Position numbers and translations under genes: made by a program | IMG/VR virus record: IMGVR_UViG_3300044712_000071 | Span: 1 to 60,528 of that record | Origin: a virus | DNA length: 60,528 nt | Direction: 5' to 3' (one strand) | Part shown: positions 3,403 through 40,819 of the stretch, piece after piece | How the letters are laid out: each line of letters begins with the position of its first letter | Position numbering within the stretch: the first letter of the stretch is position 1 | Notes under the pieces: model-generated | The model's input: only the letters and a program-made list of their open reading frames with translations | Told to the model about the DNA's origin: nothing | The model's database searches: none

Positions 3403-6400
3403 TTAGTTCATAAAGTAAATTCGATCTTCTGAAGCTAACTTCTGAACAGAAGCCATAGCAGCTTTCTTTTTCTTAAGTCCTTCATCAATCCATTTTTCTT
3501 TTTTGCTTCTAGCGTTTTTCTCTACAGCTCTTCCCATGATTTCTTTGTATAAGATATAATCTTTAACGAGCATTCCAATTTGTTTTCCAGTTAACTGACC
3601 AACAAAGTTTTCTTGGTTGTCTCTATCTTCTACATACTCATATCCATGTTCTTCTACTGATTTCATAAACATCTTTTCTCTTGGAGAAAGATCCTTAGCA
3701 TCTTTTTCTTTTAAGAATTTATATTCACGATCAATATTAGAGAATACACCATAGTACTTTCCATTTTTAGGAATCATTACTGTACCTAATTGCTCAACTT
3801 CTTTTATACCTGCAATAAGCTTTTGGCTAAAGTCTTCCCAGATAGGAGTTTGAATATCCCAGTTAAGAACCTTAGGTGCAGCTTTATTATTAGCGTAATA
3901 CATAAATTGAGCTAGACTTTGTGAGTCAAGAATGAAGTTGTCAAACACAGGTTGAACAAACAACATATCGGTTGCTTTTGCTTTGCTACCATTTACAGCA
4001 AGCATAGTATCAATAAGAACCATTGACTCTCTATATTGACCAAACAAAGGACCAATTTGATTTGCAGCAGCTGAACCTAAATCAGGGTTGTAATCTTCTT
4101 CGTAATACTGCCCTGTTTCTTTATTAAATTTCTTAATAGCTTTTTGTTCTGCTTTTGCTAATGGATCAAATAATGTTCTAGTTAAGTTAATCTTTTTGGT
4201 ATCACCAGTTGGATTAGAAACTAAGACAGAATCACCTGTTGGCATAAACATAGAGCCACCTAAAGGAATTGTTTCATTAAACATACCTTTAAATGAGAAC
4301 ATACTACCAACCATTTGCAATGATCGAACCATATCTTTAGGTAAAGCATATTGGAAACTATCAGTAACCTCTGTTAAACCAGCATAATAAAGCTTATTAA
4401 CTAGCTCTGCTAAAGGTTCAAGCGTATTAGGTAAGCCTGTTACCAAAGCAAGTTCTTCAGCAAACTCAGGATTCTTTAACAAGAATTTACGAGCATCATC
4501 TACGTGATATTGAGCTGCCTTACCATAATCGGTTGTTAACAAAACTGATTTAGCGTAAGACTTAGTAAAGTTTTTATCTTCTTTATATTTACTAAATAAG
4601 TTCTTAACAGAATTAATTACTTCAGGTTTAGAACTATTAAATACTTTGTTAACTGCTTTATCAATTGTAGCTTGAACAAAGAACGATCTAGGATTTCCAA
4701 AAGGTTGAGTTGAAGTTAATTCATTCTCAGTGTAATTCCAGATTAATCCAACTCGTTCTAATATGTTTAAGTTACCAACATCCATAGCAAGGAAAGCTCT
4801 TCCCGCAGAATTCATATCAATTGCAGTAGTTACAAATGGAGTAAACGCAGTTCCATTTTGTTTTGCCTGTAAATAATTATAGGCATCAATGTAACCTTGT
4901 AACTTGTAACCAAAGTTTTCTCTGTCAAATTCTGGGTCAGTAATTAACTTTTTAATTACCGCTTGAAGTTCTTGAGGTAATTGATTAACATCAAAAGCTC
5001 CTTTGCTAGTCCCTGCAAATTCAGCTACTGCTAACTTACCTTCGTCAGAAATCATTCTTGTTATTGCAATTAATTTCTTTCCGATATCAGCATACTGTTC
5101 CATCTTTTCAGGAGTTACTGAAGCAAATAAACTTAGAACCGTCTTATCATCAGTATCTGGCGACATAACATGACCAATAGTTAAAAGGAAATTCATTTCA
5201 GCTGCTTTGCCTTGAGCCTTCTTATCCCAATTACCTTGAGCAATTGAAGACCAAAAAGCTTTTGCCTCAGATAAAGAAACACCTACAAAAGGTTCTGCTT
5301 TAACTTGAATAGGAGTAGGTGTACCTACATAAACAGCTCGTTGAGTTTTACTACGTTGCATATTAGCATCAGTAGAGTCATCATACAAGCGATGAGTTGA
5401 ATTATCTTCAAAGTATTGTGAATACCTAGGATTACCTTCTAAGAAATTACCAGCTAAGTAATTTAAATCTCTATCTAAATCTGCTAAAGCAATCTTAGCT
5501 TCTTTATCTTGCTTACCATCTAAATTAAATAAGCGAGCAGCCCCTGTTTTCTTTGCTGTCTTTTCATCTAAAGCAATACCTGCTTCTAGTTCTTGTCTAG
5601 CTAACTTAGCTAACAAACCAACAATAGTGAACTTAGCAGTAGGAATTTGTTTAGCAATTGAACCAGCAATAACTTTAGCTTGAGTAATAGCTTCAGGTGT
5701 TTGGTATTTATCTTTAGCAATTGTTTGCTTGATCTTATCACCACGTCTAATTTGCGACATTACACCTTGGTAATCCCCTGTACTTGTTACAGGAAATATT
5801 TGAGAACGACCACCTGAACCTTCAGAAAGTTTATTAACTAAACCACGAGAGTTCCAAGCTACTTCAGTACCATAAGGAGTAAGCCTAATTGCTTTTTGAC
5901 CTGTTGCCGTTACTACTTCTTGCATTAACCCAGAATCAATAGCTGCATTCAAAGCAGTTTGTCCTGCTGCCTCGTAACTTGTTACAACATCTTCATCTTG
6001 AGGTGTTATATTTGATATTGCTTTAGCAGCTTTAGCTCGCTCTCCTAAGGCTTTACCTAAGAATTGAGCGGCTTGCTCAGGAGTAACTTCCTTACGCATT
6101 TCTCTAATAGTATCAGGATCTTTATCAGTATTATCCACACCAAACAATTCTTCAATATCCATCTCGGAAGAAAGAACATCTGATTTAATTGTTGTTGCAG
6201 GTAGCATTTGACTAAAAGATAATACAGCTGTAGTAAGAGCATTAGCTGCTTGAACTTTATTTTCTAATCCTAAACTATTTTGAATATAGTTTAAACCAGT
6301 TGTTCCTACAGGTAAAGGTTTCCCAGGAGTTAATTCATAACCAATACTTTGTTTAGTTGCTGAATTAATTAAATCCCCTCTTGTCTTCCAAACAGTTCCT

Positions 6401-40173: not shown

Positions 40174-40197
40174 ATGTCCTCATCTATCGGAGCTTCT

Positions 40198-40215
40198 CTC
40201 CTTTAGAGCAGGGCT
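40198..40215 (-). promoter_or_regulatory. Candidate phage RNA polymerase promoter, copy 3
   Basis: On the minus strand it reads AGCCCTGCTCTAAAGGAG, identical to the motif consensus, 25 bases before the terminase start. GGAG then AGAAG then CTCC makes a small hairpin at the expected start of the transcript. This is the natural promoter for the whole packaging and capsid block. Confidence 0.7.
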
Positions 40216-40453
40216 AAGTTGTTGATTTATAAGGGGTTGTTTTCGGTAGATTTATATATAATTTTTCTTAGAAATCATGGGGTTAGTGGGATAATTTGGG
40301 TATCCCTCTGGGAGTTTATATTGGTGTTTCTTTGTGTGTGAGAAAGAATTAGCCCTTCGTTCCTTGTACCCCTGTTTGCTTTCGTGGTCCCCCTCGTTTG
40401 CGTTTCGTGGGTTTGTGGTTCGTTTTCTTTCTTCTTTCTTTCGGAGGTGTCCT
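40216..40453 (+). promoter_or_regulatory. Divergent region between virion and early blocks
   Basis: About 240 bases. From 40250 there is an AT-rich stretch with TATATAAT (40255-40262), a possible -10 box for host polymerase reading right; its -35 is weak (TTGTTT at a short spacing). A hairpin GGGATA/TATCCC lies at 40288-40306. From about 40330 the plus strand becomes very pyrimidine-rich and A-poor. An early promoter here would serve the first rightward genes. Confidence 0.4.
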
Positions 40454-40738
40454 GTGTCTTTCTCTTCTTCTCTCTTGCGTTCTCCTTCTGTTGTTTCCTT
40501 TGTTCCTTCTTCCTTCCGTGTGGGTCGTGCGGTTCCCTTGCCTGAGTGGGACTCTCCTGCTTGTCGTGCTCTTTGCCAGTCCCGTGCTTACCGTACTGCT
40601 CGTGCCAACGGTGTTCGTTACCAGTTCGCCATGGCTTACGCTGTGTTGGTAGCACTTAAGTACCATCGCCCTGAGTTTGCCCACATTGAGATTGAAGAAC
40701 CTGTTTTGAAGTCTGATCCTAACTACACAGGTGATTAA
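40454..40738 (+). CDS. First early-region protein, 94 aa, biased composition
   Basis: I choose the GTG at 40454, six bases after GGAGG, although the frame is open from ATG 40334 as well. Codons are almost all C- or T-ending, very unlike the AT-rich neighbours. The N-terminal half is Ser/Arg/Val-rich. The C-terminal half (SRAYRTARANGVRYQFAMAY, then LVALKYHRPEF) looks like a folded domain. It may be a strongly expressed early host-takeover protein or a recent import. The hammerhead ribozyme begins at the base after its stop codon. Confidence 0.6.
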   Translation: MSFSSSLLRSPSVVSFVPSSFRVGRAVPLPEWDSPACRALCQSRAYRTARANGVRYQFAMAYAVLVALKYHRPEFAHIEIEEPVLKSDPNYTGD

Positions 40739-40788
40739 GGTCGAAACACCTTCGGGTGTCTACACGTAATGCGTGTACTGATGAGACC
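40739..40788 (+). ncRNA. Type II hammerhead ribozyme
   Basis: All core parts are present in the type II order. Stem II: GGTC (40739-40742) with GACC (40785-40788). Core GAA (40743-40745). Stem III: ACACC (40746-40750), loop TTCG, GGTGT (40755-40759). Cleavage base C40760. Stem I: TACACG (40761-40766), loop TAATG, CGTGTA (40772-40777). Core CTGATGA (40778-40784). Self-cleavage is expected between 40760 and 40761, in the transcript between the 94-residue early gene and the small membrane protein gene. It would separate the two messages and leave a defined 5' end upstream of the latter. Confidence 0.92.
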
Positions 40789-40819
40789 AGTTCGTCTAAC
40801 CAACTCAAGGAGTAATACA

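Follow-up and report, generated by a model that had tools for sequence, protein, structure and literature searches.

Type II hammerhead ribozymes placed between phage genes, and a role for them in mRNA processing, were described in 2011 by Perreault et al. (PMC3088659). The type II hammerheads of bacteria, archaea and phages (PMC3088659, RF02276) have an open stem II, closed stems I and III and the core elements CTGATGA, GAA and H17; in phages they lie between genes, sometimes with several copies per genome, and the loop I-tail pseudoknot is seemingly used by only about 40% of hammerheads (PMC3088659). Tandem prophage hammerheads were cleaved in vitro within ~2-kb polycistronic RNAs and a set from Agrobacterium was cleaved in E. 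coli, with no circular or spliced products in the published tests (PMC3088659). The purpose of bacterial and phage hammerheads was called an open question in the literature of both 2011 and 2017, the role of prokaryotic hammerheads being termed open in a 2017 review (PMC6155905).

We analysed a 60,528-nucleotide stretch of viral DNA, hereafter the window (IMG/VR record IMGVR_UViG_3300044712_000071). Judged by its sequence, positions 40739-40788 are a full type II hammerhead ribozyme located between a 94-codon gene and a membrane-protein gene, and the RNA very probably cuts itself. The motifs that make up these positions are listed in order in Table 1: the hammerhead core is present in its entirety (C3UGANGA9, G12A13A14, A15.1-U16.1 and H17), stems I and III are closed by loops and stem II is open. 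An earlier note on this DNA had proposed a complete type II hammerhead of a kind known from bacteria and phages, which agrees with PMC3088659, and the core motifs, the cleavage base C and the three perfect stems which it named were each found where it had placed them; the exact core and stems, together with the score from an independent model (60.1 bits, see below), bear the proposal out. Its placing of the element at the base after a stop codon and within the leader of the next gene also agrees with the coordinates, as the first base of the ribozyme lies directly 3′ of the TAA (40736-40738) of frame 40454-40738 and 31 nt separate its 3′ end from the start codon of the membrane-protein gene (ATG 40820, 55 residues).

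Table 1 Features of the hammerhead junction in the window (L123 and L290 are relatives of the window).
Feature	Position	Strand	Basis
94-codon upstream gene from GTG to TAA; T 0.53 and A 0.06 at third codon positions	40454..40738	+	Sequence, codon composition
TAA stop; stem II is directly preceded by its last A, a conserved base	40736..40738	+	Sequence; base −1 is A in 117/118 relatives listed
Stem II 5′ strand GGTC	40739..40742	+	Sequence, covariance model
Core GAA (G12 A13 A14)	40743..40745	+	Sequence, covariance model
Stem III hairpin ACACC-TTCG-GGTGT, with A15.1-U16.1 pair	40746..40759	+	Sequence, fold
H17 = C, predicted cleavage between 40760 and 40761	40760	+	Place in hammerhead core
Stem I hairpin TACACG-TAATG-CGTGTA; loop matches T-N-A-N-G	40761..40777	+	Sequence; two compensatory pair changes vs L123
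Core CTGATGA	40778..40784	+	Sequence, covariance model
Stem II 3′ strand GACC, then conserved A40789	40785..40788	+	Sequence, subclass comparison
Ribosome-binding site AAGGAG of membrane-protein gene	40807..40812	+	Sequence
Downstream 55-residue membrane-protein gene, ATG 40820; 91-93% identical in L123 and L290	40820..40987	+	Sequence comparison

We scored the element with two covariance models. The Rfam model Hammerhead_II (RF02276) gave 21.8 bits, which does not reach its gathering cut-off of 37, and an Rfam scan of the whole window did not report a hammerhead at 40739-40788. A second model, for which 49 other phage hammerheads but not the window copy were used, gave 60.1 bits (E 2.9e-16) as its single match in the window; neither this model nor a pattern search, even at relaxed stem lengths, found a second hammerhead there. 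The earlier note had suggested such scoring as a check, and its expectation thus fails for the Rfam type II model and holds for the 49-sequence model. Rfam misses the window copy because the subclass to which it belongs falls below the cut-off too: 0 of 23 members scored in 19 loci reach it, the sole Rfam match in those loci (in locus L025) being a different hammerhead, whereas 19 loci found by a GGC/GCC stem II gave 31 Rfam matches. The lack of a strict covariance hit, which the earlier note would have counted against a hammerhead, therefore holds formally for Rfam but is misleading, given a cut-off that rejects 23 of 23 other subclass members scored. Among 1000 dinucleotide shuffles of the whole window, searched on both strands, there was one look-alike, defined as a core-exact type II hammerhead with stems of at least 4 (II), 5 (III) and 6 (I) base pairs.

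We defined this subclass from IMG/VR using a pattern consisting only of the core and GGTC/GACC. At least 120 stretches matched, representing at least 118 distinct hammerheads, and stems I and III were formed in all of those listed. Three features which lay outside the search pattern recurred among the matches listed: an A directly before stem II (117/118), an A directly after it (94/118) and a loop I of the form T-N-A-N-G (67 of 107 five-base loops). The window copy has all three, and indeed every mark of the subclass including a stop codon at −1 to +4, although most members have a longer stem III than its 5 bp with a TTCG loop. In the 49 phage relatives, whose rows had been pre-chosen for stems III of ≥ 6 and I of ≥ 5, 98.3% of cells were paired and changes on both sides numbered 240 vs 69 after shuffling. 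Stem II was invariant because the search pattern had fixed GGTC/GACC; covariation supports stems I and III, both here and in the syntenic set described below.

The pseudoknotted GGC/GCC set shares the topology and intergenic placement of the window copy, and the pseudoknot is a feature of that set: one of ≥ 4 bp between loop I and the tail was found in 46% of its members vs 16% after shuffling. In the GGTC set the figures were 7% vs 6%, no commoner than chance, which gives this pseudoknot no support in the subclass. None of ≥ 4 bp is present in the window copy (longest complement 2), which differs from the RF02276 type in this respect and in having A-GGTC/GACC-A with the T-N-A-N-G loop; since the GGTC set does not show the pseudoknot, we assign the window copy to a non-pseudoknot subclass. 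It is a further case of the known type II phage hammerheads, with the subclass and its anatomy better defined here. By these sequence marks the GGTC/GACC subclass is abundant in phages, and a large group lying below the Rfam cut-off is likely to be under-annotated.

A variant with a U between A9 and stem II (CTGATGA-T-GACC) was also found, in 36 distinct copies with good stems and the same flanking A's and loop; H17 was A in 11 of the 36. Its coordinates include L128:3300-3375 and 3745-3816, L130:2382-2457 and 2827-2898, and others in L210-L237. Several records contained many hammerheads. The phage contigs L030 (IMGVR_UViG_3300047297_000136) and L109 (whole record, G017) had 10 and 12 model matches, which lay among small genes at intervals of a few hundred bases. 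The short viral contigs L298, L335 and L347 were rich in Rfam type II hammerheads, with up to nine in 6 kb, some neighbours lying head to tail within about 70 nt. Many Candidatus Gastranaerophilales MAGs (L242-L288) carried a GGTC hammerhead, often paired about 360 nt apart and probably in prophage.

The genes on either side of these ribozymes follow a common arrangement. A frame of ≥ 50 codons ended at the ribozyme in 106/112 of the GGTC set, compared to 51/110 on the antisense strand and 237/590 at random places, and a ribosome-binding site, start and ≥ 40 codons followed it in 106/110 (antisense 16/112), at a median of 22 nt. In 81/116 (about 70%) of the matches listed, the distance from the stop codon to the start of the ribozyme was −1 to +4 nt. 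Often a TAA immediately preceded GGTC, or stem II took its first base from the G of a TAG; as the stop codon so often abuts GGTC, the conserved A at −1 is often part of it. Genome compactness by itself could account for some of this abutment. Stop codons are not mentioned in the main text of the 2011 type II hammerhead paper (PMC3088659), and we found no publication on hammerhead stop-codon anatomy in a literature search which left many journals and preprints uncovered. The anatomy of the subclass, with a frame ending before the ribozyme and a ribosome-binding site and gene after it, suits intercistronic cutting.

In the window the ribozyme junction lies at the start of a rightward block which later encodes a family A DNA polymerase, a DnaB/Toprim primase-helicase and a T7-type RNA polymerase, and the terminase and portal genes run leftward, opposite to this replication block. 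This makes plausible the claim of the earlier note that the flanking genes are early genes. The terminase shares 59.5% identity with its counterpart in Roseobacter phage CRP-7, and no near-identical isolate phage was matched at the DNA level. No relatives of the upstream 94-residue protein were found in IMG/VR. The leader block in which it lies (40174-40738, rightward) is T-rich and A-poor, and its counterparts in L123 and L129 code for different short proteins and are T-rich too. Loop I contains an ATG (40769) which shares the reading frame of the downstream gene in the window, L123 and L290; in L129 it does not, and the agreement is probably due to chance.

We compared the junction between the window and its relatives. 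The ribozyme is present in the five close relatives which reach it (L123, L290, L129, L128 and L130). L123 and L290 differ from the window at two compensatory stem I pairs, and the syntenic set had 24 both-side cells vs 8.3 after shuffling. L128 and L130 have two hammerheads each, around a 111-residue gene, and these have an extra U after A9 and an A at position 17. A scan of 10 loci from relatives at the gathering cut-off found no other Rfam RNAs. In ten near-full relatives whose terminase is ≤ 76% identical there was no model match, indicating that phages of this type can in general do without the ribozyme.

Folding of the element was compared with and without its surroundings. The isolated 50-mer folds into the hammerhead secondary structure at −16 kcal/mol, and with flanking RNA added stem II of the window copy is predicted to be lost. 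The same occurs throughout the subclass, in which the median probability of stem II is 0.98 for isolated elements vs 0.03 in context (among the matches listed). The earlier note had asked whether competing folds would be more stable than the hammerhead; the answer is favourable for the isolated element and unfavourable for stem II with its flanks, as in the whole family. We rejected this loss as evidence of inactivity and do not hold it against the window copy, because it is family-wide and because published arrays were cleaved within ~2-kb RNAs.

The explanation we favour, and consider likely when taken as a whole, is that the source is a tailed phage carrying a type II (open stem II) hammerhead which cuts its own rightward early transcript between the leader gene and the membrane-protein gene. 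A cut separating the codon-biased leader gene from the membrane-protein message, as the earlier note had suggested, is the best-supported reading, and one which we infer from sequence. In the newly made rightward early transcript, the segment between the two genes would fold and cut itself after C40760. The upstream message would then end in the stem III UUCG hairpin with a 2′,3′-cyclic phosphate, and the downstream message, with 59 nt ahead of its start codon, would open with the stem I hairpin bearing a 5′-OH. As type II hammerheads cut between two closed hairpins, both products would have a terminal hairpin, a point which we did not find stated in the literature examined; these hairpins should slow exonucleases and decay that depends on the 5′ end. 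The likely use would be to let the mRNA of the leader gene, with its strong codon bias, have a fate separate from that of the long replication operon. Ribosome footprints imply that a ribosome terminating at the abutting codon would cover stem II as well as the 5′ strand of stem III, so at this TAA cutting probably waits for the ribosome to depart. Against intercistronic cutting, a sigma-70 promoter scan near the ribozyme found no clear promoter (a terminator scan gave nothing firm), and stem II is predicted to be lost in context, albeit family-wide; the ten near-full relatives with no model match also weigh on this side.

A role as a recombination joint is possible, though we think it unlikely that an active ribozyme has been selected mainly as a conserved joint between exchangeable gene cassettes, i.e. 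as a constant, short, translation-neutral piece of DNA abutting a stop codon, at which recombination spares expression. Homology with the window resumes exactly at the TAA before GGTC in L123, L290 and L129 and one base later in L128, and the ribozyme and membrane-protein gene stay the same behind three upstream genes that are unrelated. Local sharing with L129 and L128 is confined to the ribozyme and its surroundings (about 55-64 nt), and the genes on both sides are unrelated. Hammerhead pairs with one flank in common break close to the ribozyme, and those sharing the downstream flank alone break ≤ 19 nt upstream of GGTC. One-sided sharing exceeded that at matched junctions from the same viral contigs, with an odds ratio of about 2-2.5 (p 0.002-0.006) that ignores relatedness. 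However, this excess of neighbour replacement is modest after local-region matching and not significant in some identity bands; gene-border swaps are normal in phages, and a functional ribozyme alone would persist as an island of conservation. A strong neighbour-swap signal across all genomes was rejected, as it came partly from many related Gastranaerophilales loci and was modest in viral contigs with matched junctions.

It is quite unlikely that the ribozyme is a cis-regulator, in which cleavage is switched by a protein, a ligand or translation and turns down the downstream operon. The folds which compete with stem II in context would suit such a switch, as would the abutting stop codon, through which translation could gate cleavage. 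However, no adjoining aptamer-like or conserved extra structure was seen, and the competing upstream sequence is not conserved, because every relative compared has a different gene in the upstream place.

Pairing with a second copy, so that the RNA of an intervening gene is excised or circularised, is brought to mind by the two hammerheads around one gene in L128 and L130 and by phage contigs with 6-12 copies, but is highly improbable for this locus; the window has one hammerhead only, so two such ribozymes cannot produce an excision or a circle here, and the published tests noted above (PMC3088659) speak against such products. That the element is an inactive chance resemblance or a decayed relic is barely credible: the Rfam score is below the cut-off and about one look-alike with stems this long arises per 1000 shuffled windows, but the independent model gives E 2.9e-16 and the syntenic copies have compensatory changes.

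Returning to intercistronic self-cleavage, the way in which these ribozymes abut stop codons, lie at a near-constant distance from the next start and have had their neighbours swapped offers a direct test of message-fate separation and of gating by translation. A broader and rather speculative proposal, to which we give only a small chance, is that stop-abutting phage type II hammerheads are standard joints, combining exchangeable genes, a base supplied by the stop codon, ribosome-gated cleavage and, for each message, its own hairpin and its own stability. If this were true, any gene could be inserted between such joints with its own message stability.
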